This document shows, piece after piece, positions 7,001-39,200 of a stretch of 64,000 nt of DNA. Below the pieces are notes generated by a model. That model did no database searches. It saw only the letters and a program-made list of their open reading frames with translations, and was not told the DNA's origin. Source of the DNA: Argopecten irradians (Eukaryota; Mollusca; Bivalvia; Pectinida; Pectinidae); the NCBI RefSeq assembly GCF_041381155.1, contig NC_091137.1:10039765-10103764 (forward strand). Direction: 5' to 3'. The translations under genes and the position numbers were made by a program. How positions within the stretch are numbered: the first letter of the stretch is position 1; each line of letters begins with the position of its first letter.

Positions 7001-8544
7001 GGCCTCTTTAGGGGTAATGAATGCCCTGTATATTTATAAAATGTACCGTTGTAATGCATGTACAGCTAGAATGTAACCGCTAGTGCATTATCAAGCTAAG
7101 ATTTGTTTCAATTAATCCATAATATTATGCTACCGGTCAATTCATACAGTTCTGATGTATATATTTATAGATTTTTAATTTGTAAATTTTTGTTCTGTAC
7201 ATGTTCTGGTAGTGTTATACACATACATTGTATATAGGATTTACATTGTAGGTTAATTGGTAAAATTGTATTGTATATGTTCTGATATACACATATACAT
7301 ATGTACCGGTACATGTAGGTTTTTAGCTTGTTCTTTAGATATATTTGGAGGACACATACAATATTATTTCTGGTCATAATAATAAATAGTGTTTGTATAT
7401 TTATTACAACTGTACCTGGTTCATGTGTATATGACAAACTTTACAGAGTTGAAATGTACTGCAGCCATGTATCATTTATAATTATTCTGAATTTTTGTTG
7501 GAACTATAGATAATGAATTTTGTATCTTTTTTGAAACAATATTTGATTCTATCAAATGCATCAGTGACACATTCACAACTTATAAAATGTTTTCTCTAAA
7601 ATAAAAAAAAACCCTGTAGAATGAACCTACATTTATTCATTTATATATATTTGAAATTGATCATTTCAATTTTTGTCATATTCAACAGATATAAATCAAA
7701 GTACTGAAAGTACTGAGAGCTTAAGGCAAGTGAAGAAATTTAATTTGCAGGTATTCAGATGAGTAGACATAAAAAAACAAGTGTTAGCTACCCAAAAAGC
7801 TAAGAAGGCTACCATACAGCAGTTACCTAGGGTAGCTGCCATAGTTCTTATTCTCGCTTTTGAATAATGATAATTCAAATGCTTTCACATTCAATGTAAA
7901 AGATTATCAACTTCATGATATTCATGAAAGGGCCACTAGGCTACCTTTCCGAAACAAAAAATTAAAAATCTTTTTATAGCAATTATAATATAATAAATTG
8001 AAGTTTTGCCTTGTGGCGCAGAAATGGTCAACTAACCCATTGTAATTATGACGACGCCAGGAACATAATACAACCTGCGATATGAAACTTAACCTTTTAT
8101 TTATTTCAATAAAGTTGTTCATAATGTGAAGAGGGCCTTTTCCTTATGCTTACAAGTTTTCCGTCAAATATACACTATACTGATATACATTTACATGTAC
8201 TTGGACAAGTTGGTGAAATACATAGTATACAAGCATAACTTTTCAGTTAAAAGCCTAACTTTGTTTCAGCATCTCCCATGTACCGACAGTTTTTACAAGT
8301 AGGTCATGGCCATCTAGCGTACAGTACCAGTTAGGCTATATCTAGATGCTCCACGTGCTCCCGGCAATGTTTCTATTCAGTACGTGTAGCGACGCCTTAT
8401 GTGATTTCTGAGAATAATGTCCAACAACCAGAAAAAACATTCAGACTTCTTTGGGTTTATCTAATGATAATTTGTTTGCAATGATTTCCCCACTGGTACC
8501 CCTTACACACATGAAATCTTCAACAACAAGTAACCAATTTTTTG
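7000..8544. other. AT-rich non-coding stretch, nothing recognised
   Basis: Only short, stop-rich frames. TACATGT/ACATGTA-like words are common at 7190-7320. The 20-mer ATCAAAGTACTGAAAGTACT at about 7695 also occurs at about 2698, at the join between two LINE remnants, so this point may be an element edge. Confidence 0.4.
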
Positions 8545-9062
8545 TTGGCCCTGCAGGTAGGGCGTTAGAATTGTACCTGCTGCACCTATTGCATGATCGT
8601 AAAAGGTGACTAAATTTAGGATCTTATCTTTTCTATTCTTCCTAACTTACTTTATCTTTCCCAATGCCTCCATTGGCACCGCCTCACTTTTGGCCTTGAG
8701 ATGAGCGTTTGCCCCTGTAAGGAAGGCTCTGGGTTCTGTCCCCTGGCCGAGACAGACCAAAGTCTATAAAAGTTGTAGTTTCCGCTCCTGCTTAGCGTTC
8801 AGCATAAGGGGAGTGGGACGACTGGTTTGCCCGTTGTCAGTATAATGTGACCGGGTGGGGAGTGTTGTTTGGTGTCTTCAGTTGCATGCTTCAGTGATAT
8901 AGCACTATAAAAAGGGCAACAGTTCCACTATACAAGAAGACACAACATGAATTTACTGCAGTCTCCCAAAACACGCACCTCGCACAACATTCACGCAACA
9001 CACTGCATACATAGGAGGCCATAGCTGTTAATAGGACGTTAATTAATCAAACAAACAACACA
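8545..9062 (+). mobile_element. SINE-like dispersed repeat with AAACAAACAA tail
   Basis: A moderately G+C-rich block of about 520 bp that stands out from the AT-rich surroundings. It starts near GGCCCTGCAGGTAGGGCG and ends with GGACGTTAATTAATCAAACA and a CAAACAACA tail. It contains TATAAAAGTTG and ACTATAAAAAGGGC words. I recognise the body (for example CCTCCATTGGCACCGCCTC) as a widespread molluscan repeat, by memory only. No open frame. The tail suggests spread by retroposition; the internal promoter type was not established. Confidence 0.5.
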
Positions 9063-9093
9063 CGTAAATCATTTGGGAAAGCCAATCAAAGTG

Positions 9094-10230
9094 CAGTGAT
9101 AGGGAAGGCCACGCGCCCTGCGCCATACGCGCATTTGTTGGATAAATGACGCATCAAAAAACATACTTAGACATTTTGATTGATCATCGGTAAGATATTA
9201 TGGTTTTTGAGACGGACCCCGGTTTCTAAACACGATGACGTAAGATCTTTTTTTATTGGTTCCCCACCCGCTGATTTGTCAAATGTATACAGAGGTTATA
9301 TGACATGTATTACAAACCACTAATGTATTGAAATATCGAGTTTTGTTTTATCGTTTTTTAAGAAAATGTAACTATTTATCGTGTTCTGCCTTTGAGTGTA
9401 AGCGTTTTTCATCTAAATAAGCGACTTGTCACGTGACACTCAGCAATGGTATAAGCGGTCCGATGTAAACAAAGATGTCATAACGCAAAATCTGATACTG
9501 TTCAGGGAGTTCCCTGCGTTAGAACCTAGATGTAAATCTGATACTGTACTTGCTGGTCGAAATCATCTATGAGAGATAATTTCCATTCTTTTCACTCAAC
9601 AGCTTGAAAGCGACAGAGACAATTTCTTTAGCATCCCCCCGATGTGGTCGATCACATTCACGTAACTTTATCTGAAGAACACCTGAACAACGCAACCACG
9701 TGCATTACGCTAGTAATCTTCAACATCCCTTCCGTATTTGGAGACAGAAACAGTAAAATTCGTAAGCGTTCATTTCGTTTTGTTTCTACATTAAATAAAT
9801 TGGTCTTTGGGTCGGTATATGAACTACATACCACTTATGTTTCTGATTTTGTATTTGACAAACAATGACGCATGAAGTGAACTAGGTAACATGTCTGTGT
9901 ATTTCTGCTAACATACATATAATCAATGTTTTGTTTTACAACAAGAAAAAAAAAGTTTAATATTACTTCTAATTTTGAAGCAGTTTCTGGTTAAATGATC
10001 AGTTAACAAATTCATCTGCTAGCATTTTTTACTTATTTGCTGAATCAACAGTACACTGACTAATGAGTGACTAATAAAACATTGATGATACATGCTGATG
10101 TTAATTTTTGTTTTCGCCTCAATGTCCCTAGAAAATGTAGTTTTGGCGCATTGTCTGATCAAATGTCCCATCAAAATTTTATTTCAAGGGGACATAGTCG
10201 CATAGTAACAAATCTCCTTCCCTATCACTG
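9094..10230. mobile_element. Non-autonomous DNA transposon, 15-bp inverted ends, 5-bp target duplication
   Basis: Ends are CAGTGATAGGGAAGG at 9094 and CCTTCCCTATCACTG ending at 10230, a perfect 15-bp inverted repeat, flanked on both sides by AAGTG (9089-9093 and 10231-10235). CAG-starting ends with a 5-bp duplication suit the hAT5-type group of hAT elements. A 74-codon open frame at 9644-9868 resembles no transposase I know. A piece related to about 9710-9930 occurs inverted at 11685-11835. Confidence 0.7.
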
Positions 10231-10951
10231 AAGTGAACTGTGTTTAATTATGTTTATTCAAAAATACTTGAATAAAATAACATAGCATAACATAACAAAA
10301 CATTATTTTTATTTTACTCTTTAGTGATACATGTCCATCTGAACGTATGCTTTTTGATATGTTTTTACATACCGTAAATCTGTTCAATTGCAAATTTACT
10401 TGAAACCTGCAGTCCGCTAATTATGTCATGTTCATCATTAGATGTTTTGCAACACTACGGTCAATTAGACAGAATTGTAACCCTAGATCTGACAACAAAG
10501 TTGTCTAGAGCTTTATATATCTGCCATTGCAGCTAGTTAATATATGCCCAGTATTATTTCACTGCTTCTTGATAATCTCAATTCTTCAACATTTTGAGTC
10601 TGCTGTGGATGACTAGCAAATATTGGGTCCTGTTATTTTAGAATTTAACAAAATATGCAATAATTTCAATAAAAAGTTATAGAGTCCTCTAACATAAACT
10701 TAAAGAATTTTGTTAAGTTCAAGTCAGTTGTGGAGTCTTGTTTACAAGTAATTTGAGTTAATATATTAGTATCATTTTTAATCTTTTTATTTTTAATTTT
10801 TATCAATATTTTAAGCTCATGTTTCCAGTTTTTAAATCAGAGATAATAATTGTCTTAATAAAATCTAGCCTTATTAGTGATTACACTTGTCTCTTAAACT
10901 TCATATACACACATGTATATTATGTACAAATGTATTGTGTATACATGATTG

Positions 10952-11081
10952 TGTAACAGGAGAGGAGAAAATGTAGCGGCCAGACCGGGATTCAAACCCG
11001 GGACCCTCAGAACACTAGCTGAGTGCTCTACCGACTCAGCTACCTGGTCTCCGATGATTGACCCAGTCCAATCCTGCTACA
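10952..11081 (-). repeat. TRIM 3' LTR (130 bp) containing a tRNA-like sequence
   Basis: Left-hand LTR. The tRNA-like part is 10978-11049 on the minus strand. Its D-stem is disrupted here (GCTG in place of GCTC), so it is more decayed than the right-hand copy. The polypurine tract lies just outside it at 11082-11098. Confidence 0.85.
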
Positions 11082-11175
11082 CTCCTCCCTCCTTTCTCAA
11101 AGTCTTCACCCTCGAAGACATACGAGAATCTTCCAAATACCACCAACGTGGGTTATGTAGTTGGGGCGCCAATTT

Positions 11176-11305
11176 TGTAACAGGAGAGGAGAAAATGTAG
11201 CGGCCAGACCGGGATTCAAATCCGGGACCCTCAGAACACTAGCCGAGTGCTCTACCGACTGAGCTACCTGGTCACCGATGATCGACCCAGTCCAATCCCG
11301 CTACA
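11176..11305 (-). repeat. TRIM 5' LTR (130 bp) containing a tRNA-like sequence
   Basis: Right-hand LTR. The minus-strand tRNA-like part is 11202-11273. The primer-binding site lies just inside it at about 11162-11171. Confidence 0.85.
11202..11273 (-). other. tRNA-like sequence inside the LTR (pseudo-tRNA)
   Basis: 72 nt on the minus strand: GACCAGG, then TAGCTCAGTCGG (matches the A-box consensus TRGYNNARNNGG), GAGC closing the D-stem, anticodon stem CTCGG/CTGAG around an eight-base loop, T-arm CCGGA-TTTGAAT-CCCGG, and TCTGGCC as 3' acceptor strand. The acceptor has an A-C mismatch at pair 2 and the anticodon loop has one base too many, so it is unlikely to be a working tRNA. It could serve as a pol III promoter for the TRIM. 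Confidence 0.75.
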
Positions 11306-11325
11306 ATTGTATCTCTATATTGATT

Positions 11326-11384
11326 AGCTACTGTTGTAGCAGAGTCAGTCAGAAGGTGATATCTTTTCCTCTACAACAGTAGCT
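11326..11384. mobile_element. Foldback element, short copy (AGCTACTGTTGTAG ends)
   Basis: AGCTACTGTTGTAG at 11326 pairs with CTACAACAGTAGCT ending at 11384. The inside contains CAGTCAGAAGGTGATATCTT, which is also in the longer copy at 22615-22744. Non-coding. Confidence 0.7.
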
Positions 11385-11684
11385 ATATATTTATTGATTA
11401 CATAAATATGCTTATTCATTGTCATGTATGTTACACACTATACAAAATCCTACATACTGTTATGTTTTGTGATGTGGACACTCCATTAACACGGTATCAA
11501 TATGGACAATTTGGCAAATTAAATCTGTTACACCTACTGAATTAAATGCATTAAATTGTATGTCATAAAATTAGAAAATAATGCTAGCAGTTAATTTTTG
11601 TCAACTTCGAATTTGAAAAGGAAACTGCTCCAAAATATAAAGTAATGTTCTTGTTCTTGTAATAAAATAAAACATCTATATCAC

Positions 11685-11835
11685 ATACGTTAGCAGAAAT
11701 ACACAGAGACACGTAAGTTCACTTCATGTGTAATTTATTTACTGTAGACAGGTATAAGCAAAACGAAATGAACACTTACGATTTTTGCTGTTTCTGTGTC
11801 CAAATACGAATGGAATGTTGTAGGCCTTGATTATT
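11685..11835 (-). repeat. Inverted partial copy of the 9094-10230 element
   Basis: Its reverse complement matches about 9720-9930: GTATTTGG(A/G)(C/G)ACAGAAACAG..., then AATCGTAAGTGTTCATTTCG, then ATGAAGTGAACT and TGTGTATTTCTGCTAAC. Internal deletions are present. No terminal CAGTGATAGGG is seen, so it is a fragment. Confidence 0.6.
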
Positions 11836-11839
11836 GCCA

Positions 11840-13640
11840 CACGGGTCGTGTTGGGGAAGTACCCGGGTACCCGTCAAAATACACGTAGGAACCATGTGTA
11901 GGCTTCCCGGCCGGGCATCCGTCAAAATACTTACGAAACATACTGATACTGAGTGTTAGATGTCTGTGTAAACGTAAAATTCAGTAACAAGAAGTACAAA
12001 ATAGCACTCTTTTGTTCTATTTTACTCACAAAGGATGACACTTCATCTGCTAACGACATGTTCACAAGCAACATTGTTGCAATTCTTATTTCCCATGATC
12101 GGAGAAGTGATCATGAATGGCGCACATGTTTACTTTCACTATCGGTATGCTGTATATCACAACACCAGAGGCTATCCGAATGAAGACTACGTCACTCTTT
12201 TGTACTTCCTGTTGCGCATGTGCGGTAAACAACATCTGTCACGGACATTCTGGGCTCTGTCAGCTTGTTACATTACGATTGTATGATGTTACCGATTGAT
12301 ATTAAATTGATATACCAATGCCATTTGCAGTATTGGAGAATAAATCTCTCACATTTCATTATGATTACATTGAAATTTGCTCCATCTGCAGATCGCCCCA
12401 AACAACATCGGTAAATTGTACCACTAAGCTAACTCACGAAGTTGATACGTTCACATAGGAATACGTTCACATACTGTAGGAATACAGGTCGAGTATCTAG
12501 GTACGGATCGGATACTTCAATTCGGGTACACGAGGACAAAATTTAGTACTCATACCAACCCTACTTATACATACTTAAATCCTGTCAATTCCATTATTTA
12601 GTGTTATCTAAACTAGAAGTTCATCCTATATGCAAATGATTGGCGAGAATTTAGGTCATCGATCGCTATCATTCATGCAAATTATTCTCACTATTTTCCA
12701 TTAATAGACAATGATATTATAGCTTTGGACACATTTTTGAAACTATAACACTTAAGGAAATACTACAGATTTTTTTCATGCAATCATAATTACACCATGA
12801 CAGCATATTTGCTTTAGAAAGCGGATTTTTTGGACCTGAGGTGTAGTACTTTTTCACGCTAGGTGGTGTCGTAGTCGAAAAGGCATTTCCAGTATTTCCG
12901 GTATCGCAGGCAATGACAATACGCTGTAAGGCTATATAGCCTTAAGCGTAAAAATTGCTGGTTCTTTTTTTCAGGCACCATGCATGCATAGTGACATGAA
13001 TACAGAAAGTTCATCCCTTGGACCTGTATACAAGTGTATGTATACATATACATACAATTAGCATCATATGAAGACTGAAGAATGTTGATTTGAGTGCTCT
13101 TGAAAGTAAACTTTTCCAATATGGACCTAGAAGATCATGAACAGAACATTTAAACAGTATTAATTTATTAAATGTTCCTTTCAACTGTAATCATTAAATA
13201 AAATTATGATGCAATACTTTTTCATTGTTTAACTTTGTAGAAATATTTGTTTATATTAGTCCTCTAGATCCAGTGATTATAATTCTTGCATCCATATGCC
13301 TGCCCATTTGTTTGTCAGGGCTTGTGAGATAGCTTTTCAATTACTTTTAAAATATAAGGATTTTTTTTTTACATATAGCAATATAGATAACATTGTCTTA
13401 GGATTTCTAAATTCTACTTTACAAGAGAGTAGACTCAACATATAAATAAAACCATAAAACTAGCAAGTTATCTGAAATGTTAAAAATCTTTTTGTCTGAA
13501 CCAAATTTCACATTTATTGTCTATGTGTAACTTGTACATAGACCATTTATGTATTAATACTGTAGTAACAGTGATTACAAACACATAGACTAAAATGTAG
13601 TATGTAGTACTATGTACATCTGTCTTTGATTTGAGTTCTA
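11840..13640. other. Non-coding stretch, nothing recognised
   Basis: Only short frames. The part 11840-12560 has partly repeated, G+C-richer words (ACCCGGGTACCCG at 11861). I could not connect this to a known element. Confidence 0.35.
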
Positions 13641-21244: not shown

Positions 21245-24200
21245 GTATATCCGCTTATATGCAGAGTGTTATTTTCTGTGTATAATCCATCAGTATTTTA
21301 CGATGAATTAGCTTTAAGATAGCCATAGACACAACTATCCATCTCAATAGTCGTGTTGTTTATTGATTTATGTTTCACAAGTTCTTTTTCATTGTCGACT
21401 TAAATCATAGCAATGGATGTGCGATGCTTTAAAAGACTAATACCCATTTGAACCTTTTATAATTGATATCAGGAAAGCCTATTTTGTTGAATGTAAAATC
21501 GAACTCGACAGTGGCCGCCCACTGTCTATTTATCAGTCTGCAACTAGCCCGAGATACCCTGGCCCTGACACCAGACTTGGACATTATGACAGATAGATGT
21601 CTGGTTTAGGGCCAGAGCGCACTGCTACATCAAAACGTGGAATATGCTGACATGGACACCTACACGGTGTTAGGGCAACAGTATCTCGGGCTAGGGCACA
21701 ACCAACTCCACCAATGTTAGAAGCATAGCACAACGATACGCTTTGACTATTGAAACATTACATCGTGTCAAACCTCTAACTTTCGACAGCCCAAGGGTTA
21801 TATATATATTTGTAAAAGGAGGGGAACAGTGTGGTTTGTACATAGTGTTAAATAAGGTCTTTGTCACTTGGATCAGCTGACGGAGCATGCTTTTTTTGGC
21901 TCAGTTGGTATATATAGAGCTATAGATTTCTACGCCGGAGACCCGGCTTCGATTCCTGGGCACTCGACAGGAATGTGTATTTTCCCTGTTTTTCTTCATT
22001 GGCCCCATACTAAATAACCCGTGGAAGGTGGTTAAAGAGTCTCCGGTTGAGATTTAGGAAATCACAAGAATACAAGGGGAGTAGTGTAAAAGGAGAGGGC
22101 CAGTGTGGTTTGTACATAGTGTTAAATACGGTCTCTGTCGCTCAGCTGAAGGAGCATGCTATGCTTCTTTGGCTCAGTCAGAAGAGCAGTATATATTTTC
22201 ACGCCTGAGACCCAAGTTAGATTCCTGGTCGGTTCATGCGCACTCGACAGGAATGTGTATTTTCCCTGTTCTTCTACATTTTCAAAGTTGGGCGTTTAAA
22301 TTACATTTAAATGGTCATCAATGGTAAATGCCTACCTCTTTTTTCAGAATATAATAAACAAATATTTTGACAAAATAAGCCGTAAATCCATCTAAAACAA
22401 ATCACTGAAATGCTTGATCTGCCATTACTTTTACTTGTGTTCTAGTTGCAGAATAAATATAATAACTGTATTTTCCCAAATAAGGGCGCCCCCACGTTTT
22501 TGCTGGGGAAAACCCCAACCAATTTCATACAATTTTTCTGGCAGACTGTGACGATTTGTCTTTGCAGCTGCTAATAAAATACTGTTTCACATCAGTTTGA
22601 TGCTTAACATATCTTAGCTACTGTTGTAGCGGAAAAGATATCACCTTCTGACTGACTTTTCAAGTTGTAGCGGAAAAGATATCACCTTCTGACTGACTTT
22701 TCAAGTCAGTCAGAAGGTGATATCTTTTTCGCTACAACAGCATTTTAACATATCTATATCATCTTGTATATAGGACATTTTTGCCGAGTGTTCACGCATA
22801 GAATTTGAAAAGTGACATCACCATATATGTTCAAAACAAAACGTGTCACTTGAATGTCCCACACACGTGTGATGAAGGCTAACTGGCAGCAACATAAGGT
22901 TCCTTGATAATTAACAGTTATGTTATAATTTCTAAGCGTTGTATTGTGTACTCTTGTCAGTATTTCTTATCTGTCACAATATGAAAGTAGCGATCAGAAG
23001 CACAGTCGGCCATTTTGTGTATGCATGCTTTTTTTGAGACTCATGTTAAATGTTTTTTGTGATCATAATCAGTATTAGAATTATATCTCATTCTGTCTTT
23101 TACAGGTGGAACTTGAGAAACTGAACAAGGCATCAGAGGAAATCAACAAGTTGGAGTTGGAACTGGACGTAAGGCTATTTGGCTATTTATATTATTATTA
23201 ACCCCCCTCAGGGTTTGTGTCATGGCTTTTCATCCTTCCTTGCTGTCTTTCAGTATCTGGTCTGTGGGTTCTCCTATACTATATAAGGCTATGGAATTTC
23301 ATACTTAGTGAGTCCATCTTTTCTGATGAACTGTAAGGTTCAAGGAAATATTGAACTGAATTGGATTGTTAAACTGCATTCATAAACCAGGTCACTCACA
23401 TGTATTTTAATTGACTTTTAACCTAGATTTAATTTAAAACCTTGTTAGGACAATATTTCCTGTATCATAATGTACTGAAACTGGTCCATCTAGGTGAATA
23501 AACTAGAGCATTTTGTCACAACCAGTAGAGTTTGTTTCTACATAGAAGGTGTTTACATAGAGTAAAAGTGGCTATAATAAAGACTGAATTATAGTGTAAT
23601 CATAAATCTTTTTTGCTCTGTAGGATGGACGAGCAGGCTTTCGTCAGGCTTTGTCAGAGTCTACACAGAAACTTAACACACTTGCCAAAAAACTTGGAGC
23701 TTGTGTGGAGAAGGCCAGACCCTATTATGATGCAAGGGTGAAAGTGAAAGAAGTAAGATCTACAGCATCAATAGCTCTATGGCATGTCATGGGCGAATCA
23801 AAGAATGATTAATTTGTTTTAACAGCTGTATCAGGATATCAAAAACTTTTTCTTTTGAGAGATAAGATACCTGATTGATCAATTTAGATCCTTTTACTAA
23901 AAGCATAGGTGTAATGGAAGAAAACATCTTCTATTTTCTTTAGTTTAGATTTGATAAAAACAGTAAGTTACAAACATCGCATAAACCTATATAATTAACA
24001 GTTATAGTTTCAGAGTAATATATATAGAGTGGAACTTTGTTGATACAAACTCAGATAATTTGACAACTCGGCTTAATATGACATACTTTTGCGGTCCTGG
24101 CCGAAATCCCTCTTTATCTTTGTTTAAAAAACTTGGAAAATATGAATTTGTAACACTGAAAAACTCTGTTATTACAAAATAAATTTTTTGTCCAAATGAC

Positions 24201-27200
24201 TTTAATCATATATAAAATGTTCATATAACTTGAAATGAGATTTCTTGGACAACAAAACTGCTAAAATGCCTATTTCTTTTTCATAAATGTGCCGTAAAGC
24301 TGTGGTATATGTACATTACATACATAAAAATTATTCTGACTAAAATGGCGACATGATACAAAACAGGTGCTCTCGCGACATGATACAAAACAGGTGCTCT
24401 CGACCGCCTGTCACTTGCTGATTGTGTGTGAACTAATCTCTAGCCACCTGGCACTCTGTTACAAATGCAATCATAACTTCCAGCAGTACACGATCATTGT
24501 TTTTATAGAGCGATTACAATGGGTGTGAACAATGTTAGTGCTTTGGACTATTTACTTGGCAAAATAGACTTTACGTCGTTCACCAGCCACCAGTGATAAA
24601 ACACTATCATTTGAATTGATATGCATAGAATTACTCTCTGGATAACTTCCTATGAATACATGTGTCTCGGTTACGCTAGTTATATCTGTTATTTATATGT
24701 GCGTGAAAAATTGATTGTGACTGCAGTTGATGAGTCAATATTATGGATATATTTCGGTTTTATTGTGACAATTTTGCAACCACCATCAACAATTTTGACA
24801 TCTTTCATGCTTGTAAACATCGTTTTATGACACCGAAATAGTAGATCTATACTAAGTAAAGAGATCATCAGTAGACTTGAGAACTCCCTTAATTCGATCA
24901 CTCAGATAACACAAAGATTTATCTCCGTCCCTTCGAGCTTGTATTAACCGAGTTCCACTGTATATATATGGAGACCTAGAAAAAAGTGCTGGCCCTATGA
25001 TTGGAGACAAGCTATGTTTATGTAATGGCCATTTTGATTCCAGGCTCATATTGAGGCCCAGAAAACCGCCCTAAGATTTGAACGGGCCTGTAGTATGCAT
25101 GAGGCAGCTAAGGAAATGGTACAGCTGGCAGAGCAAGGCTACATGTGTCGTGAGGAGCCGTCGGACCCAGCCTGGCAGGAGATGCTCAATCACGCCACCA
25201 TGAAGGTTACTAAACCACAGACAATATCTGTGCTGAACAGGGGATAATGCCATTTTTGCTGGTTACAGGCAAGTGTTACCTGTCTTTGTAGGTAGGTATT
25301 GATTGTGACATCATTATTATTTTGTGAGCGAAAGTTGTTTTTTTCTAAAAAAATATGACATTATGCTTGCAAAACATGACGTCAACAATCAATACCTACT
25401 CTTAGGCAGATAACACTGATATGCAATGTGCAGAATAGAGTTATCATTCCGCAGACAGCTGTACATTGTATACCATTAATGTTCGAGTTCACAAATACTC
25501 AGCTTAGTTATAATGTCAACCATTACCTGTACAATATTCATGTTATCTTTGGTTTTTAACAGGTAAATGAAGCAGAGAAGGAGAGAAATGAGAGTGAGCA
25601 GGAACATATGAAAACAACTGTTCTTTTTAACGAGGCTGACACAAAAGTGCAATATCTCCAGAAGGATTTGAAACGTGCTATCAACAAATCCAAGTAAGTT
25701 GGAGAAAGATGAACAGTTATCTGTCTTGTGTGGACTGTTAAGATGTTTCTTATCTAACTAAACTAGGTCATTTACGTGATAAAACAACAATATATTATGA
25801 TAACTAACAACACACTCATTCACAACTTCTATTTAGTCTTGGGCTTATTGCACTAAAAATGTAGAATGTCTTTCATTATTGTTTAATTTTCTTATATTTA
25901 AAAACTGACATCAGAATCATTATAAAATTCTGTACACAGAGAAGCACTAACTATTGTATGGAGACCTATTTTCATTGTTTTCATCATTGCATTGTCCATA
26001 TTTATCTCCCTTTTCCATTGTTTTGCCCCAGTATGTCCATTCGCAGGAGTTTCTTACAAATGGGCGACATTGTCAACAGATATGAGTTGTGTTTATTGTA
26101 AGTAAGACAGTGACTTTTATCCTTAGCATGCCATCTCAATACTACCATCTACACCCTTACTGGCCACATACAAACCAGGTCAGCGTTTCGTTATACCATC
26201 TAGATCCTTACTGGCCACATACAAACCAGGTCAGCGTTTCGTTATACCATCTAGATCCTTACTGGCCACATACAAACCAGGTCAGCGTTTCGTTATACCA
26301 TCTAGATCCTTACTGGCCACATACAAACCAGGTCAGCGTTTCGTTATACCATTTAGATCCTTACTGGCCACATACAAACCAGGTCAGCGTTTCGTTATAC
26401 CATCTAGATCCTTACTGGCCACATACAAACCAGGTCAGCGTTTCGTTATACCATCTAGATCCTCAAGGCCCACATACCGACCTGGTCAGGGTTTCATTTT
26501 ACCGTCTTTATTGGTATCCTCAGGGGCCAAATATGGACCTAATTTCTTTCATTAACTATTAGTCATAGGGATACAAGTAAAATGTGATATATATTTCATA
26601 CTTCATAATACATAATATTCAATTTAAAACTATTTTTCTAATTTCTGCAACTCCATTTTGAATACACTGTGAATCAGTTGCAGTGTTTTGGATGCATGTC
26701 AACAGGGCTCAAAGTGGCGACCATTTTAGTCGCCATGGCGACTTAAATTAACCATTGGCGACCAAATACTGCTCCATAAGGCGCCTGAATGGCGACTAGA
26801 ATTTTCCTAAAAAAAATCGGCCATTCCCGAAAAAAATCCGGAAATATAGCCCGCCTTTGATTTTTATATATAGTGACTATAGTCACCAAAACGCTTGAGT
26901 GAGTCTGACAAAAGCTACAACACAGTCAAACACTTTTATGATCACGATCTATTAGACAAAAATGGCTGAACCCAAGCGCGGGATACTGGCCTTCTTTTCA
27001 TCTACTATAGCTAGTCGATCTACTACCAACTCGGCAAAAAGCAATGAACCTGGACTCTCAGATGAAGCAGAGTTAAATTCATCATCAACAGTAGTTGCGA
27101 AAAGGGCACAGAAACGACTGTTTCAGGAAAGCTGGAAAGAGAGTTTTTCGTGGTTGTTATATGACAACGATGCCAACGTTATGAAATGTAAATATTGTTC

Positions 27201-30200
27201 CGCTGATGACGGTGCAGCTAAGTCGGGAAGTAGTTTTATTCATGGATGCTTTCAGTTCAAAAAAGAATCATTAAGGAAACACAATGATAGTAATGCCCAT
27301 AAAATCGCTATGGAACACTGTCTTAGCAAGCGAAAACCAAAACAAATAGTGTCATCTTTTCAAAAACAAAGCCAGAAATCCGACGAAAAAACTATCAACG
27401 AACTTAAAATCAAGTTCAATACTGCTTACGCCATCGCAAAAGAGGAGTTGCCATTCACTAAATTCCGCGCATTGTTACAAATCCAAAGGAAAAACGGTCT
27501 TGAAATGAACGAAATGTACGAGAATGATGTAAAATGTGCAGAGATTATACACTGCATCAGCTCCACGTTGAAAGATGAACTTGTCAATCATTTAAGAGAC
27601 AGCGAATATTTCAGTGTCCTTATTCACTGGTAGCACTGTTCTGTTAATTTTCGTTCTTAAACTGTTATTTTAACCATATTCGTGAGTTTTTAAATATTTA
27701 TGTTGGTTATATCTGTTTTACTGTTATTATCAAAATTTTAGTTATCTTTAACTAAAAGCATGTTATTATGTTCTAGCACACGTTATATTTTTGCTGCTGT
27801 GTTATCTCTATCTTTGCATGCGTTTGTCTTTTTTAAATGATGTTAGATTTAGTGGCTGATGTTATTATTTATTTTGCATTGTTATTCATTTCGTTTCACG
27901 TGTTAGTGTCAGCAATGATTGTTAATGATTTTGTTTCCCATGTTATTGTCAGAATGTTACTTGATTTTTATGTGAAACTTTGTTAGCATCAACAGAACTT
28001 GTGATTATTTACGTGACCACGTTACGAGTATCGTTGGAAACGTTATTTTTTTTTGAAAGCGTTATTTTTTTCGTGGAAATACCACTGCCTATTGTTCTCA
28101 TTGACCCCCTACGGCGACAGCGCAGTGAGCCGGCGTGCGAGCTTTGCTAGTGTGTTGACCACTCACCCATAACGAGAGCACGGCTCCCAATTATATAGTC
28201 GACTGGCGGTATCGCTGTCACTGTATCGCTACCGTATCGCAAGTGCTGTGCAACTGAGCATGGAATATATATAGTTTTCAGTTACTATATTTACAGTTCT
28301 TTTTCTCCAAAGTTTGCATTCACTGTATAAACTTATTGAAAATTCCTGACATATTAGGGTGCGTGACGTAATCGACCCTTTGCGAGGCAGAGCAGCTCAT
28401 CACTATCAATGCTTGCATACGGCGCTCGACACACCTACCTGTGATTTTCAAAAACGTCTTTTCAGCGATTGGGGATTGTTGCTACGTTTCTCTGATTTTT
28501 TTTATTATTAAATAGCATTGTCATGAACTTTCGTTTTCTTATAAAATGTTAAGCAATGCGGGACGAAAGCGTAATTGTGAGAACCGCGATGAACAACGTA
28601 ACCCTGTACAATTTCACCTGGATGCGAAGGCTGGTGGATAATTATGTATATTTAATGAGGGTAAAACTTTCGTGTAGATTTCTTACTTTTTTCAATGATT
28701 TATGCATTCTTTCTAAAGACTGTAGTAAAAAGTAACACATACTTGTATTCATCTTAGCGATTAACATTTTTCTACATATTTAATTCTCCCTCTCTCTTTC
28801 TTTCTTTCTCTGCCTCCCTCTCTGAGTGACAGGTCACAGCACTTATAGGTTCTCGCCATGTCTGCTAGTGTGATTATCCTGTTTAGACAGGAATTCACAC
28901 TAGACCTATACACGATGGAGAAGGTTAACGGAATCGTGATGCGCCCTGACTAACGAGGCTCGACTTACGGGGCGCTTTGAATATTAAGGCGGCACTAGTA
29001 GGAGCACGAAGCGAGAAAATGGCCGACAATAATTGTATACACTTTATAGACAAAGATATTGAAAGGGAACATTAACATTGAAAGTTGCTAGTAGACGTAA
29101 AAATTTCTCTTTATGAGTTGCAAATTGGTTGAAATCTTAGCGAAGTACGGGATAAGCTGGGCGGATGGTTACGTTATGTATAGTAATCTTCAGAATGTGC
29201 ACAGAAGTCATCTACAAGTATTTAAACCAGAGACTTAATAGTTTTACTGTAATTTAGTAGACATGTAATACTCTATCATTAATTTTGATTCATATATTGT
29301 ATATGGGGGTGGGGGTTTATACGTATCGAAATTAGATCTACATTGAAATCACGCAAAAACTGCATATAATTATAACATTTAAATTTTGTGGAACTACACG
29401 TGTCAAAATTCATGTTGTCAGAAACATTTTAATTGTCAATCTGTTTTAGTGCATTACAAACACAACAATTACTTCTTATTTATTTATTTTGAATTCCAGA
29501 ACGGTTTAAGAAACACAACTATGTACATGAATTATAGGAATGAATAAAAATCACGATTTTGATCAGATATTAATATTTCCATTCCAGGTTCTGCATCCCA
29601 TTGAGAACATCTTGGGAAATTTCTGTAATCGTTGAATCCATTTGTATGTGTATGCTTATAAGAAGTTTACTTGAGTAAAAAGTATTGTTTAAACTTATAA
29701 ATAAACAGGCCGCGATATTTCCCGGGAGACATTGGGATGATCTTTCCTCGTGAGCTTTGAATCGATCCAAACTTCAAGTGGAACCTTAAGTACTAATTGC
29801 CATCATTTACAAGTATGACATCGAACAAGTTTTATGTTGTACTTTGTAGGACGTAAGACATTCGCTTCCTTTTGTTGATAAATACAGTTTTATACGGATC
29901 CAACAGAGGGCCCTAAGACCAATTTTAGAGGTTTCTGATTTTTTATCTAAACCTCTTAAACGTCTATAAATGGTCTCTGGTGTGTCCATAAATAAAATAT
30001 ATCAAATGTAGCTAATTTTCGGATCCCTGTGATATTACCATATATACATGAAAACAAGTCGATGCTTTATTTATGTATGTATGACAACAGAAACATGTAC
30101 AAATGTATTGGTTTATGATAAATTGACATTTTTATCCGATTATGTTTCAAAGAAAGATTTGTTTTCCAGCACTAATATTCAGAATTTGTTAGAATAACGG

Positions 30201-33200
30201 CAGAATACTTAAATTTTTAACAAGTTTCGGCAGGATTTAGCTTATGTGCTTTTTTATTCAGTGTTAACCCTTAATATTAGGACTTTTCCTTAGAATTCCA
30301 ATTCGATCAGAAAAATTAAGTATTCTGCCGTAAAATTAAGTATTTTTCTGTCCGCTGTCGCCGCCGTGACGGCCGACTAACAAACCATCAGAGGCTATCA
30401 GTTACAAGTACCCACCTTTGTTTACATGCACGGCTATCTATTGCTACATAGTCGTGGTCAAATTTTTCCGATGCAACAGTGAAATTAACACATTCGGCGA
30501 TAGAATTAAATATGTCGTCGGTTATATTAATACTTTCTGCGCGAAGATTAACAGATTTTCTGACTGACGTTGGTAATTATCGAGCGGACGCGCCGAGCCG
30601 TGACGGCCGAGTACACACGGCTTGCACAGGTAAACATTAGGTTTGTGGAACGGGCCAAGCTATCTGATTGTAGACTACCCGTGTGATATTTATGTTTACG
30701 TCATGCATGCACTAATACAGTTACTTGTTTTGCTCTCGTCATTCTTGCTACCTGGCGAAACATGCATTTTCAACCTTTTTTCGGGAGAGTTCCGATACGA
30801 GCGGTAAAATATGAATTACTGTTTGTACTGATGTGAATTGTGTTGATACTAAATGCTGTTCGAGGTTCTCGTTTCAGATATCGTAAGACCAGAGAAGAAG
30901 ATCGAAGAAAATACCAGGCTGACGTTGTGATGCAAAACTTATCAGCTGAAGAGGATTAATCTTGAAATAAATGAAATTATACGACATAAGTTCACGTGTT
31001 AATTTTTACCAATTTCCAATTTGTAAAGCTTGTCTACACACCTTGTATACATGGCTTTGATCTGCGATTGAAGACGTTTCTGTAGTTCTAGATCATTGAT
31101 ATTCAATTAATATAGTATACAAATGTACCTGAGGTTCTCGTTTCAGATATCATAGTGTAGGACAAGAGAAGATCGAAGGAAATACCAAACTGACGTCATC
31201 ACTTGTGTTAACTGTTGAAAAGCTGAAGAGGACAATAAAATTGATCGTGTTGATTTTTTTTACATCCCTGAAAAACTTTGATATATATTACCTATAAATG
31301 GCGTTTTGTAACACCAATCACAAAGTTCCTTTGATGTGGTCACAGGTAACTTTCAACCCCTCACCGATCTGTCGACACCCGAATGCCAATCCCACTCGAA
31401 ACTTCCAACGATTAACAATGGATTTCATCAGACCCATATCTGATCATCAAATCCATTACAACATCTGTCAGTCTGGTTTAGACTATGTTCCTAATTTGAT
31501 CAGTAATTAAAATAGTGATACCTCTGCAAACTTTGCATTTTATTACTGCTTATCCATACATCAAATTACAGATAACATATATACAAGTATTATGTATAAG
31601 TATCATATTTTAATATTAATGAATTAAGTGTATATCTTAATCAGTGCCGTCTATGAACAATACCTTTTAGAAAACAATAAGGGGCGTAATTAAATGCTCG
31701 ACATATCATTGAGTAATAATACAAAGATTTTTTTTTTACTACATACAGTTGAGTTCTGGTGATTTTTATGAACGTATTAATCAGTATCAATTTCTAAAAA
31801 TATCGAAGAAATGTCTGCATCGACTCACTCATGTCACACAAACGCCACCGCCCCATGTATACAGACCGCACACCCCTCCCCGTCATGAAATAATTATAAC
31901 TATCCACCCAGCGTGAACCATGACGACCTTTCTGTTCCTGTCAAATTTATCAGTACCTGGTCATCACGTGTTCAGCCACGCGTAAACTGTAATATGGTGT
32001 GTTTTATTTCAGTGACTGCGGACCAAATCGAGTTACCAACAGAATTTAACAACTTTTCATTTCAAAATACAAGTCAACGTATTATGAGATATTTTATATA
32101 AAGACTATATGGTAATATTTCAAAATAAAAAAAAAAGTTTCACGTTCTAATATACGACTTTTCAGGACACGCACGTCTTTGTTTACTACACTAAACCCAG
32201 ATATACGAACGATTTTAACAGATTAAAAAGAAACTTTCTATCTAGTTACAGTTTTTGGTTTTGGAGTCCTTGACTATTCATTTAGGTACGACGATGTGTT
32301 CCGATAAGAATTAGATAAAATAAAGTGTACACGGAATGGTTTGGTGTATAAGGCTTGATAAAAGCGTCATTGGATAAAATTTTGAATGCCGAAAGTACGA
32401 GTTTCATAGCGATTACGGTATTAGAGATAATGCGCCGTTTCTCTAGAACACACCTGAAGCCCCAAGCCACTGACCCCGATTCAGGACCCCTGACCTGTGA
32501 CGTCACGAGGACAACGGGATCGACTCTACTCGCATAAGTTAGAGTGGCGATATTCGGTGTCTACCATCTAATGTGAACAATCCGTTTGTAAAAATCGATT
32601 TTGAAGACACAAATACTTGTGTACATGTCCGATACCTATTTAATATTATCCTCAATCACAGATATGAGTTTGGAATATGCATGGAAATAGGGATTTATAC
32701 CATACATATATTGATGTACCTGTCGTAGATAAATGAACATCTCTGCGCGATTACTGTATAATTATACACAATAAAATGTACATAATAATCCATGTACGTT
32801 GTATATCCGCGGTGTTTGGGACCACATATACACGAATATTATATCAAGAACGTATATGTTCTTGATTATGTTACCCAAAACCCAACTCGGGTCGTCTAAT
32901 GTCAACTGGTCAAATAAATCCTTGAACCCACTTTACAAAATTCCGACTTTTTCATAAAACCTGCCCATACGACTTAAGGTATGATTCTAAACATATTTTT
33001 TGCATATGTGCAAATGCATCTACTAATTGTGTTTTGTCTGAAATCGATCGTGTGACTTAATACACATTTAATACCATTGTCTAATTGCCAGTAAATATGT
33101 TTGTCATTTAATTCTACTGTGAGTTGGTGGATTTCATTCTATATACTAAGTTTTGAGAACCGTAACACATATTTAGAATTTAGACGGAGTGATATTTTCC

Positions 33201-36200
33201 GATCTAATTGTTTTTTTGACGAAATACATTTAACTTTCATATACACGTAATACGGAACAATCCGACGACTTGTTGATATTTCGCTCAAATTCATTCATTA
33301 GTGTCTTTACTAGAACAATAAATCATGCACGGGTCAGACGAACTGAAGATGTCTATGTCTTTTCCAAATATCAGATATCAAGTTTCAAAATCAAAATATT
33401 TTCAATGTCGTGCCGCGTTAATCTCTTTACCTGTATACTGCAGTAACGAAAGCGCGTGATCAACCCTGGCTATCGAGGGGATTACGTAAGTAAGGTGTTA
33501 GTGACCTGCCACGCTTAGTTGATTAGCACACGTCACGTGTCAAAATATCAGTTCACAGGTAAGTTAGCGATAGGCCATCATGTTATTGTTGTATAATGTC
33601 ATATTTGTAAACACTTATAAATTTTTGGTTTAAAAATAAAAGTAATATATACCGTTTGTACGTAACATATAACCAGTGTGTCAAGCACTACATGTATATA
33701 CTTCAGAAACACCCATGCATACATTTGTACATAATAAATGTTTCTGGTTACATGTATATGTATTTTTATAACAAAAACTGCAAAATTATTTACAAATGAC
33801 ATATAGAGAAAGATTAATGCAAATGTAATGCACAATGTCAGAATTTTGATACATCTGATAGTTACTAGATTTCAGATGTCCAATTCTTTGTGAATTTTGG
33901 TCAATATCGATCATTATTATGATACCAAAAATAATAATCTATATGATCAATAAATGTACTGTTGAAGATTGTTTAAATAACACATGTCGACATAGATTAA
34001 AAGAGAAGAGAAACAGGTTATAGCTATAAATGAATTTTATATTATAAATTCAAACTCTCAAGTTTTGTTTTATTGTTTACCCCCAATTTATGTCTATGAT
34101 GGCTACGTGTATTGAACTATAAAATACATTCAACACATTTTCTTTTTTGTTATGTTGGTTCTTGAAATTAATAGCAGTGAATTTTTATTTATACCGAAAC
34201 ATATTCAAATGGATAATTATATGACCATCATTTTCCGAATTTGTCTCTTTTAAGATTACATAGTGAAAATTGAATATTCCCGAAGTTTGATAATTTAGTG
34301 ATTTGTTGATACAGAGATTAGATCTCTAGTAAAAATTTACCGAGGCGTGCACGTATAAAAGTTTACACAAGGTACACAAAGTGATGCTTTTAGACTGATT
34401 ATAAATATGTATTTTAGCCTTATTTCAGTTGCAATATTTCCTAATATAATATGATCAAATCGTCATCATAACTGTATATATATTTGTCAAATTATCGTAA
34501 CCCCATTTCAGGAATATATATATATGTCCACCTTTGTTCTATAACCCCGCTACCAAACATATACAGCTCACACTGCCGTTGTCCTCGTGACGTCACATCC
34601 TGTTATTTCCCAAATCAGGGTGAGCGGCCGATACCCTGATTAGCAGTCGTTATACAGGTAAAAATCGAGCACTTCGGAGGGCGGTATCTCGGTACTGAAG
34701 CGGCCGATTTTGATGCGGTTTTCAACATTCTTGTCAGGAGATCAGACAGAATAACATATCAAAATATAATTTTCCGTTCCGTGTACAGTTGTGTGGTCGT
34801 ACTTATGGTACATGTTCTTCGACTACTATTTTATGGTGTATGAGAAACTGGGAAGATTCCCACTCGAAGTAAATATCAAACTGAGAATGCTGTGTTTTTG
34901 GAATAGACTTATACAAAATGAAAATAAATTAAGTAGCATACTTTATAAACTAATCTCGAAGTTACATTTCGAAGGAATATACACATTTTAATGGATATCT
35001 TTCATTAAAAATATTTTTGACGAATCTGGTCAGTCAAATATCTTCCTCAATGAAATACAAATGATTAACAGTTTTTATAAAAGTTTTATGAAACAGCGCC
35101 TTCAAGATCAGTTTATACAAAAATGGTTCTCAGGTGTGGAAAACTCCTCAAGAGACAGACTTATCTAATATATAAAAAAAGAATTTGGATTTGAAAATTA
35201 TCTTATAAAATTATAGGAAATGAATAGAGTATACATAACTAAATTCCGTACATCAAATTTAAAAATTCCAATTGAGACTGGAAGATGGCGTAATGTTGAG
35301 AAACGTGAAAGAATATGCCATTTATGCAATGAAAATATCGGGGATGAATTTCACTATCTTTTTGTATGTAAACACGAAGAAATAAAAAAAATATACGTAT
35401 TAAATATATCCCACAGTATTATTATAGTAATCCCAGTCTTCATAAGATGGGTGGCTTTATAGGTATTTGTAATATACAATTATTGAAGAAGGTGTCTCTA
35501 TTCATTAGAAAAATGATGGTATTTTTGTAGATGTGAATAAAAGCTATGATAGTAGTACGGTATAAGTATTGTTCATTTTCAAATTAATATTCCATATTTT
35601 AGTAATTGGTAATGATATATATTGTTGTCCATCCTGCCACGTGCAGTTAAAAATGTAACTTGTATAATCCATGTAACACATTTTAATGTGTCTGGGAGAC
35701 TATAATGAAATCTTTGAAACTATTTTCTGAGTTGCAGTGACATGGATTAATTACATATTAGAGTACCCGTACACTGGTTAGGCAAGTCTGTGAATCAAAA
35801 GCACGACAGGTGGGCTTTCAACGTGTTTTCGTGAGGTATGACCCCGTTGTCTTGGTCACGCTAGAACCCCGCGGCGATTTACATGCCAAGCCACGCAACC
35901 GTATTAGTTCTCAGGTAACTTTCTGGGTACGACTTCGCCAATTTTCGTTATGGGTTCGTTGGAATGGCCACGCGTGTGATTTAGAGAGTTGCCGCTGGCG
36001 GTTAATCGCCAATCTTTGTCCATGGTCCGTAAACATGAGGTTAAAAGAGAAATGTTAGTGAAAGATTGGATTAAAAATCCCTCTTGCTAAATAACATTTT
36101 TGTGAGAAATCGATTTTTATTTTTTATATCATATATATATATATATAATTAACCAGGCAATTCACGCTAAAAATATGTATATAACCAGAAATATAGTTCC

Positions 36201-39200
36201 ATAAATGCACACGAAACAATAGATTTTATGAATAGTAAAGAATTTTGTAAAGTAATGAGTTTGACCAAAAGACATAACGGCCGAGTATAAAATAATATAT
36301 ATCATTACTGGGTTTGCGCTGGTGTTCCATAACTGAGGTCCTCAGATTGAATGGGGTCCTTTTAATACATTCTTGATATACAAAGTTCATTTGTTCATTT
36401 TTTTTATTTCAAGTTTAATACGATCTTTGATTCAACCTGCGGGCCGATTATAAACAATCAGGTAAAAAGTGGTTTCAAAAGCATTTAGTGTTTCATGTAC
36501 ATCGACAAAATAAAAACACATCAAATTAATGAGAATAATTAAAACAGATGACATGGGTCGTTTAGCCGTACTTTTTTTTGTAGATCAATCGATACAATCC
36601 ATAAATATCTGCATGCGTGCTAAAATTCCTTTCACGGTAAAAAAAATTGTGTGAGTCCATATTCGTCATATTTTCTAGGTCCAAAATCTGCTGCATAAAG
36701 TCCATGAAACATTATTGTTTTTGTCAAAACTGCATACTACTTTTAAAACCACTGCTCCGTTAAATCAGTATCACTTAGTACAGTAGTTGAGTGATGACAT
36801 GCTGTGAGAACACGTGGACGACATCACATCTTTTGCTTATCCGTACAGTTAATTGAAAGAAGTCTACAAATAGTCAATTAAAGAAGTCGTATCACCTGAC
36901 TGGCTATAATGTTTAAAATTGTCTGAAAAATGAACATTATTCTTTATGAAAAATGTCACCGTGCCTCATGGGCTCTGTCATGAATACTATTACCCAATCA
37001 CATAAGAAGCGTACCTTGAAAGGTATTGATTGACTCCGCCCCTTGTCATCACTTCTCTCGCTGAATCTTGAATTGACAATTTTTTCAATTCATTTTATTC
37101 CGACCCGACTTCAGTAACAAGCGGCCCTTTAATGACCTGGGGGTTGTTTTTTCTGTGGGCTTAGTCGTCTATCTTCATAATTTTGAAGGGGGACTTCTAA
37201 CACGACCAAGAAGATTTGTCTCATACTGTTTAAGAGCTGATATTTCGCGATGACATAGTGACCTTGATGATGCAACATATCGATTTGATATGGTCCAAAG
37301 CTAGCTCATGGAGTGACCGCATTTGTGTTAGGTACTTGAACACAACTAGAAGTGACTGGTTAGCTTGACAAATTTGGACGTTTACTAACCTAAGAATTAG
37401 GAAATTTACTAACCTAAGAATACGGATGTAACATATAGTAAGTAGTACTAAGGGTCTATTTATACAGGAATATTTTCGCAGAGACTTAGCTAGAACTGTA
37501 AATATAGTAACTGAAAACTATATATATTCCATGCTAAGTTGCACAGCACATGCGAATACGGTAGCGACACAGTGACAGCGATACCGCCAGTCGACTATAT
37601 AATTGGGAGCCGTGCTTTCGTTATGGGTGAGTGGTCAACACACTAGCGAAGCTCGCACGCCGGCTCACTGCGCTGTCGTCGTAGGGGGTCAATGAGAACA
37701 ATAGGCAGTGGTATTTCCACGAAAAAAATAACGCTTTCAAAAAAAAATAACATTTCCAACGATACTCGTAACGTGGTCACGTAAATAATCACAAGTTCTG
37801 TTGATGCTAACAAAGTTTCACATAAAAATCACGTAACATTCTGGCAATAACATGGGAAACAAAATCATTAACAATCATTGCTGACACTAACACGTGAAAT
37901 GAAATGAATAACAATGCAAAATAAATAATAACATCAGCCACTAAATCTAACATCATTTAAAAAAGACAAACGCATGCAAAGATAGAGATAACACAGCAGC
38001 AAAAATATAACGTGTGCTAGAACAAAATAACATGCTTTTAGTTAAAGATAACTAAAATTTTGATAATAACAGTAAAACAGATATAACCAACATAAATATT
38101 TAAAAACTCACGAATATGGTTAAAATAACAGTTTAAGAACGAAAATTAACAGAACAGGGCTACCAGTGATTGATGCTGCTACCGACTCATCCAATAAAGA
38201 AAATGAGGCTGTAGTTGTCAGATACGTGTCAGAAGGAATCCCAGAAACAAAAGTCCTTGGATTAATCGAACTTCAACATGCTGATGCTGAAGGTTGGTAT
38301 AATAACATACCAGAACATGTACATAATTATAAAAAAATATATAAATGCATGTGTGGCATTACAGACTTTAATTATTAATTAATAAGTATATGAACATTGT
38401 ATTTTCACTTACAATTAAATATTTCAATTGTACTTTTATTTATACTTAGGAACACTGGAAGCAATCAAGAAAGCATTTCTATCTGCAGATGACGAAATGT
38501 TGTTTAGGAATCACCTTGTTGGTTTCTGCTCTGATGGAGCTTCTGTTAATTTTGGAATGAAGAGTGGTGTGGCGAAAAGACTAACTGATGATTGCCCTTG
38601 GCTAATACCAATTTGGTGTCTTCCACACAGGTACTAGGCTATATTTAATTATTGTAGAAACGTCATGTACCCATTATTTAATTTATATGAGATATTACTT
38701 CCAATGAAAACTTGTCTTAGTAGTATTTGATTTTAAGAAAGGTTTACTTGCTGTTAATGAATGCTATCAATTATAAACAACTTCATAAAAATTACTACTA
38801 TCTATAAGTTACAAAAAAAAACTTTATTGGATAATATATTAACTGAAAAAGAACTTTCTGAGTCATAAAAACTGTTACATTGATTCAATGACAGATTAGA
38901 GCTTGCAGTGATGGACATGCTGAAAAAGTCAGATATGGGGGCCAAAGTCATTGATGTACTGCATCTGATTTACAAGACGTACCACTATAGTCCTAAGTCT
39001 AAACGAGAACTTCAAACCTTAGCTGACAACCTCCAAGTCAGAATCAAGACTCCATCCAGAGTAAAAGGAACCCGTTGGTCTCCACATACAGAAAAAGCTT
39101 TGAAGAACCTTCTGCTTCCACCACAAGGAAAAACCAACCAGGATGTCGGACAATATTGTATTGTGCATCAGCATATGGAGCATTTAGCGGAGTCTTCAGC

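Follow-up and report, generated by a model that had tools for sequence, protein, structure and literature searches.

A TRIM retrotransposon, very probably of the Helenus kind, with tRNA-like sequence in both LTRs and nested in a multiplied repeat of Argopecten irradians

Structure of the TRIM at the Locus

The stretch of Argopecten irradians DNA analyzed here (the window, 64 kb) carries on its minus strand a TRIM of 354 bp at 10952–11305, the parts of which are collected in Table 1. Read in the sense of the element, ATTG is followed by an LTR running from 11305 to 11176, the 94-bp interior, a second LTR running from 11081 to 10952 and ATTG again. The two LTRs, each 130 bp long, agree at 124 of 130 positions and differ at six, and comparison of the window with itself returned a direct repeat of 134 bp over the LTR pair (E 1.8e-55). 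The interior opens with four bases and then the PBS-like motif TGGCGCCCC, which begins 4 nt past the upstream LTR and occurs only once in the 64-kb window when both strands are searched; it closes with a 17-nt purine tract, GAGAAAGGAGGGAGGAG, directly adjoining the downstream LTR. The TRIM has no coding capacity and its interior is non-coding. The initial annotation had described a complete TRIM at 10948..11309 from its LTRs, ATTG duplication, PBS-like motif, purine tract and interior, all of which were recovered at the same positions; the strand, which it left unstated, is minus.

Table 1. Features of the TRIM and of the repeat that carries it (positions in the window; LTRs named in the sense of the element).
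Feature	Position	Strand	Basis or remark
Carrier repeat, TRIM nested inside	7694..12954	.	5261 bp, non-coding, probably Helentron-like
TSD ATTG, left copy	10948..10951	.	sequence; empty carrier sites with single ATTG
TSD ATTG, right copy	11306..11309	.	sequence; empty carrier sites with single ATTG
5' LTR	11176..11305	-	130 bp, TG...CA
3' LTR	10952..11081	-	130 bp, TG...CA
Interior, non-coding	11082..11175	-	94 bp
PBS-like TGGCGCCCC	11163..11171	-	4 nt after 5' LTR
Polypurine tract GAGAAAGGAGGGAGGAG	11082..11098	-	touches 3' LTR
tRNA-like sequence, 5' LTR	11201..11273	-	RF00005 39.4 bits; ARAGORN; LTR positions 33-105
tRNA-like sequence, 3' LTR	10977..11049	-	RF00005 41.7 bits; ARAGORN; LTR positions 33-105
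Box A-like TAGCTCAGTCGG, 5' LTR	11255..11266	-	motif match, putative function
Box B-like GATTTGAATCC, 5' LTR	11212..11222	-	motif match, putative function
Box A-like TAGCTGAGTCGG, 3' LTR	11031..11042	-	motif match
Box B-like GGTTTGAATCC, 3' LTR	10988..10998	-	motif match
Candidate pol III terminator TTTT, 5' LTR	11192..11195	-	LTR positions 111-114
Candidate pol III terminator TTTT, 3' LTR	10968..10971	-	LTR positions 111-114

Passenger History of the Window Copy

Searches of the genome with the whole element (best 40 of 2628 candidates scored) and with the interior (best 40 of 518) returned mainly copies that share one history. The best 40 of the 2628, window copy included, are 95–100% identical, and 39 of them, again including the window copy, have common flanks; the only independent insertion among the 40 is L039, which has its own ATTA duplication and beside which a 41st match is partial (72%). 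In two of the shared-flank copies (L034 and L035) ATTT stands in place of the right ATTG. The bounds of the surrounding repeat, set by alignment of the flanks, are 7694–12954 in the window, and the longest open frame in this carrier is 93 aa. A pattern across the filled right junction gave 47 matches in the genome, 46 with the TRIM end and one doubtful, which show the last LTR bases only and may include solo LTRs. A pattern for the empty site, in which both flanks are joined over one ATTG, gave 22 matches, and its reversed control gave none. Three empty sites were read and aligned (L131–L133); they are 89.5–92.2% like the window over spans from 11306 to about 12811–12871 and from 10231 or 10345 to 10952. 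Since carrier copies that lack the TRIM have a single ATTG, the two ATTGs at the locus are a real target duplication (TSD). The shared flanks, the 46 filled junctions and the single-ATTG empty sites together indicate that a single insertion into a single copy of the carrier, with duplication of ATTG, was then multiplied by the carrier. That the copy travelled inside a larger repeat could not be seen by the initial annotation. It is suggested that passengers of this sort can inflate both the copy counts of such elements and predictions of tRNA genes in scallops.

The carrier was examined at its ends in 13 copies. The left end was present in 11, each reading AATCAAAGTACTG, and the right end also in 11, in 10 of which a palindrome precedes AAGCGTAAAAA, the other showing a variant; the palindrome was seen directly in the sequence rather than by folding. 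No TSD was found when flanks were compared by eye in the nine copies with both ends, and no TIR was seen, no inverted match between the end regions being better than E 0.13. Internal inverted repeats lie at 9718–9801/11732–11823 and 9864–10038/11568–11735. Helentron-like elements are characterized by the absence of TSD and TIR and by a 3' hairpin. By these features the carrier is probably a non-autonomous, rolling-circle (Helentron-like) repeat, sharing with Helentrons and non-autonomous Helitron-like elements the lack of TSD and TIR, the palindrome by the right end, the non-coding sequence and the many copies. Helentron elements with satellite-like repeats are reported in oyster (PMC7492417). 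Within the carrier, a 43-nt motif beside the TRIM (11325–11385) forms part of a hairpin with TAGCTACTGTTGTAG and CTACAACAGTAGCTA arms, and three recurrences of it lie near 22.6 kb (22615–22740).

Independent Insertions in the Genome

A pattern of 26 nt that spans the junction between LTR end and PBS has 970 matches in the A. irradians genome at up to three mismatches, a number that includes tandem units and passengers; the reversed pattern has none. From the 100 exact junctions listed (contigs C1–C12), 60 copies were read, the first in the order of the list, after exclusion of copies already returned by the whole-element search and of later units of tandem arrays. One of these (L091) is a passenger, leaving 59 non-nested copies, and L097, which shares its flanks with L084, was counted once. 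Exact duplications of 4 or 5 bp flank 32 of the 59 and represent 31 distinct insertion sites (30 of 4 bp and one of 5 bp), comprising 24 different 4-mers. By comparison, 4-mers matched in 59 of 3540 swapped-partner controls and in 21 of 2100 slid controls (1–1.7%). The 27 copies of the 60 without an exact TSD comprise seven with one mismatch, seven beside a TRIM-like PPT, one that continues into another unit and 12 others. The initial annotation had proposed a test for LTR pairs with duplications of 4–5 bp elsewhere in the genome, and such pairs are present at these 31 sites.

LTR–LTR identity over the 31 insertions ranges from 0.835 to 1.0, with a median of 0.962 and three identical pairs, so that some copies of the family look young. 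The 17-nt PPT of the window copy was found in at least 20 of 32 TSD-bearing copies. In addition, tandem TRIM units spaced 223 bp apart occur at three places among the 100 junctions listed, with units starting at C3:40647950/40648173, C6:2699392/2699615 and C10:39930425/648/871 and arrays extending over C3:40647950-40648198, C6:2699392-2699640 and C10:39930425-39930896. These arrays, and the fact that each repeat is itself a tRNA-like unit, could be taken to mean that the family consists of tRNA-derived SINEs or tandem tRNA pseudogene units merely resembling an LTR element. Such an origin is extremely improbable, given the TG...CA LTR pair, the PBS-like site, the PPT and the flanking TSD at 31 independent sites, together with the empty site carrying a single ATTG; moreover, tandem arrays are reported for the Helenus family LTR-11_DR in the main text of PMC10886601 and for biv-TRIM (PMC6934838). 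For the family as a whole, SINEs and tandem tRNA pseudogenes are ruled out by TSD-bearing LTR pairs at independent sites, and the copies are not confined to tandem tRNA-like units lacking such pairs. Real retrotransposition of LTR elements that bear tRNA sequence is supported by the empty sites in the carrier together with the 31 independent target duplications, all from one genome.

The tRNA-Like Sequence in the LTRs

The Rfam tRNA model RF00005 fits both LTRs over its full length, with 41.7 and 39.4 bits (gathering score 29), and these two parts are the only Rfam matches at gathering score in the 64-kb window. ARAGORN calls the same two places, and the tRNA-like sequence that the initial annotation saw in each LTR is thereby borne out. 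The ARAGORN calls have no isotype and an irregular 4-base anticodon, and the anticodon loop is one base above the usual length; the LTR sequence of the window copy is therefore tRNA-like, and a tRNA gene is not plausible here. In neither LTR copy does the cloverleaf come out as the fold of minimum energy (z -1.96 and +0.44), so the resemblance to tRNA rests on sequence and model and not on fold energy.

Among relatives, 20 of the 33 TSD-bearing copies were given to the model, and the tRNA-like part reached the gathering score in 35 of their 40 LTRs (34 of 38 without the passenger L091), with scores of up to 55 bits. The tRNA-like part is thus present in most of the relatives checked; one copy (L079) has a TSD with neither LTR matching the model at gathering score. 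An alignment was made of 30 LTR parts, comprising 28 of the 35 matches in relatives (those of 73 nt) and the two from the window. In a test of covariation, one pair in the T stem has changes on both sides in three cells, a value as high as which was reached in none of 500 shuffles. This is the only one of the 21 pairs with double-sided changes, a number that 212 of 500 shuffles also reach, and the signal is weak. Because only one pair in 21 behaves in this way and shuffling matches that count so often, the aligned sequences give little sign that the whole cloverleaf is being maintained. The passenger L091 is included in the tallies of 35/40 LTRs, of 20/32 copies with the PPT and of 26/32 copies with the PBS (below), as well as in the 30-part alignment and the T-stem test.

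Relation to Known TRIM Families

Recently, TRIMs with tRNA-derived sequence in their LTRs were named Helenus (Kojima, 2024; PMC10886601). According to the main text of that paper, animal Helenus elements have a 4-bp TSD and lengths of 311–1263 bp, 51 families occur in pteriomorph bivalves, and A. irradians is listed in the host table (Table 1 of PMC10886601). The kind to which our element belongs is thus already known, and the statement in the initial annotation that no well-described animal family of this type was known does not hold. The tRNA-derived sequence in both LTRs, a PBS-like site, the PPT and the lack of coding capacity are common to Helenus, as there described, and to the element here; its 354 bp fall inside the published range, its TSD has 4 bp and its host is listed. 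The Helenus boxes are given as TRGCY...YGG for A and GGTTC for B (PMC10886601), and the majority of the 30 aligned LTR parts agree with them. No structural difference from the description of the kind was found. The element at 10952–11305 is almost certainly a full-length TRIM of the Helenus kind, with tRNA-derived sequence and boxes A and B in its LTRs, and it is probably identical with a listed Helenus family. Among the 15 papers listed of 2,756 in a broader literature search, the names Helenus and TRIMp3 occur only in Kojima (2024). The main text of PMC10886601 has no word beginning with "nested", "helitron" or "TTTT", so that carriage by another repeat and termination are absent from it under those words. 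Added here are a comparison with empty sites, a collection of independent insertions, the history of this copy as a passenger and the question of termination.

Other TRIMs carry small-RNA sequence in their LTRs as well. Plant Cassandra is likewise a TRIM in which both LTRs hold a small-RNA gene with a pol III promoter, and its RNA is said to span from the 5' LTR to the 3' LTR (PMC10886601, main text); it differs in bearing 5S rRNA and in its plant hosts, whereas the sequence here is tRNA-like. The parallel that the initial annotation drew, a tRNA in the place of 5S, is supported as a structural reading. Its interpretation as a whole therefore stands for the structure, the tRNA-bearing LTRs and the likeness to Cassandra, and falls for the absence of a described animal family. 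Ajax of nemerteans is also an animal TRIM with small-RNA sequence in its LTRs, namely a 5S rRNA fragment, and has a 5-bp TSD (PMC10886601, main text). A 5S-type TRIM such as Cassandra or Ajax was rejected for this locus, where no 5S match was found and only tRNA reached gathering score in the window. In bivalves, biv-TRIM has repeats of 202–218 bp, an interior of 77–80 bp, the PPT GGGGAGA and tandem arrays; the abstract and early Results of PMC6934838 do not mention tRNA-derived sequence in its LTRs. Both are bivalve TRIMs with tandem arrays, but identity with biv-TRIM was rejected on size, as the element here has a 130-bp LTR and a 94-bp interior.

PBS and a Possible Mobilizing Partner

The core TGGCGCC starts at interior position 5, and the PBS reads TGGCGCCCAACTAAAT in 26 of 32 TSD-bearing copies, all of them selected for exact TGGCGCC. 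Eight nucleotides of the PBS-like site presumably fit metazoan tRNA-Lys. The PBS pattern TGGCGCCCAACGTGGGG, searched as ATTGGCGCCCAACGTGGGG with at most one mismatch, has 56 matches in the genome that share TGGCGCCCAAC, some of them regularly spaced at about 5.5 kb (C18 and C9). One place in the C18 array (L164) encodes an integrase core domain (rve, 6.6e-14) together with a zinc-binding domain of the H2C2 type, the latter a borderline match, and at another (L165) the PBS follows sequence common to two other places, much as it would follow the end of an LTR. Among the five PBS-pattern places read in part, no Pfam domain was found at L161 and L163; L159 is without a long frame and L166 without a frame of 150 aa. 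A pattern for an autonomous partner sharing the 5' interior behind a non-TRIM LTR end had no exact match in the genome, and with one mismatch allowed it had 135, two of them with another LTR end among the 100 listed. This pattern search, with its zero exact matches, thus gave no autonomous element with sequence in common with the TRIM beyond the PBS core. Animal Helenus is viewed as dependent on the Gypsy superfamily in the main text of PMC10886601, and the integrase-bearing array in the host would fit that dependence without proving it. At a further place (L160), the PBS-like GGCGCCCAACGTGGGG runs straight into an apparent inverted TRIM-like LTR end, an arrangement that suggests nested or rearranged copies.

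Pol III Signals and Proposed Transcription

Both LTRs have box A at LTR positions 40–51, box B at 84–94 and TTTT at 111–114. Across the 30 aligned LTR parts the majority forms are TAGCTCAGTCGG for box A and GGTTCGAATCC for box B; in the window copy, box B reads GGTTT and GATTT, having lost the CG of the majority form. From boxes A and B together we infer a putative pol III promoter in the LTR, and pol III transcription of Helenus is expected, not demonstrated, in the main text of PMC10886601. Among 31 independent copies, which were selected by an exact junction spanning LTR bases 116–130, 60 of the 62 LTRs retain the TTTT (5' LTR 31/31, 3' LTR 29/31), and 14 others of the 127 LTR 4-mers are retained as well or better.

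Transcription by pol III from one LTR to the other is the simplest reading of these signals, and we give it an even chance. Pol III would start shortly before the tRNA-like part of the 5' LTR (at about LTR position 23–33, judging from tRNA genes in general), would sometimes pass the TTTT of the 5' LTR (111–114), cross the interior and stop at the TTTT of the 3' LTR. The resulting RNA, with an R repeat of about 80–90 nt, would be the template for a Ty3/Gypsy-type element supplying reverse transcriptase and integrase, with a tRNA as primer at the PBS and with priming from the PPT. Apart from this, the ancestor of the window copy inserted a single time into a member of the 5.3-kb carrier repeat, whose multiplication took it along as a passenger. 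The first TTTT is placed such that it would by itself halt pol III after about 85 nt, and its retention in the 5' LTR means that a full-length pol III template needs read-through of it. Retroviral poly(A) sites pose the same problem of a signal that is first bypassed and then obeyed. The retained TTTT raises a testable question, namely by what route an LTR element driven by pol III would obtain its full-length template. The fuller proposal, in which pol III alone defines the R region by starting ahead of the tRNA-like part, passing over the TTTT of the 5' LTR and stopping at that of the 3' LTR, and rolling-circle cargo spread has taken the element to at least about 46 places, is possible but on balance doubtful.

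Alternatively, the tRNA-like part could be a functionless SINE fossil in the LTR of an element transcribed by pol II. In favor of this, mean pairwise identity is 0.893 for box A and 0.909 for box B against 0.913 for the whole LTR, and in the 3' LTRs alone 0.881 and 0.946 against 0.914, so that the conservation of the boxes does not exceed that of the LTR as a whole, except for box B in the 3' LTRs alone; the window copy has box B without its CG, and the TTTT of the 5' LTR would block a pol III template. Nevertheless, AATAAA/ATTAAA and TATA(A/T)A are each found in only 1 of 31 copies, neither a poly(A)-signal nor a TATA(A/T)A motif is present in the window copy, tRNA model scores are as high as those given above for relatives, and the compensatory cells of the T stem, though weak, also count against it. 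A pol II-transcribed element with a fossil tRNA is accordingly held to be unlikely. Another explanation would limit the pol III product to an RNA of about 85 nt ending at the TTTT of the 5' LTR, acting as a tRNA-like decoy or regulator, while the full-length template would come from transcription started outside. The near-complete retention of TTTT in both LTRs agrees with such a short RNA, but it can be simple inheritance from a tRNA gene, and by analogy the RNA of Cassandra, reported in the main text of PMC10886601 to begin in the 5S sequence of one LTR (5') and reach that of the other (3'), would argue for a longer product. We therefore regard this explanation as quite improbable and keep LTR-to-LTR transcription by pol III as the preferred reading.

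Other Features of the Window

Besides the TRIM and its carrier, the window contains part of an SH3BP5-like gene, the ORF at 46853–48106; as a query it matched a protein of Argopecten irradians with 100% identity over its whole length, and the next three relatives are from other scallops. About 10.5 kb at 27624–38169 lie between inverted repeats of about 680 bp that are 97–98% complementary, and no ORF of 90 aa was found between them. An ORF with a C17orf113-type zinc finger (26962–27633) ends at the left side of this region, and an ORF without a Pfam match (38908–39786) lies to its right; as a guess, the two may be one split gene. Large minisatellite arrays start at 42248, 52122 and 58211, with units of about 58, 17 and 44 bp, and the 17-bp array, which can be read through in several frames, gives rise to long spurious ORFs. 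A repeat-coding stretch is present at 56497–57169.
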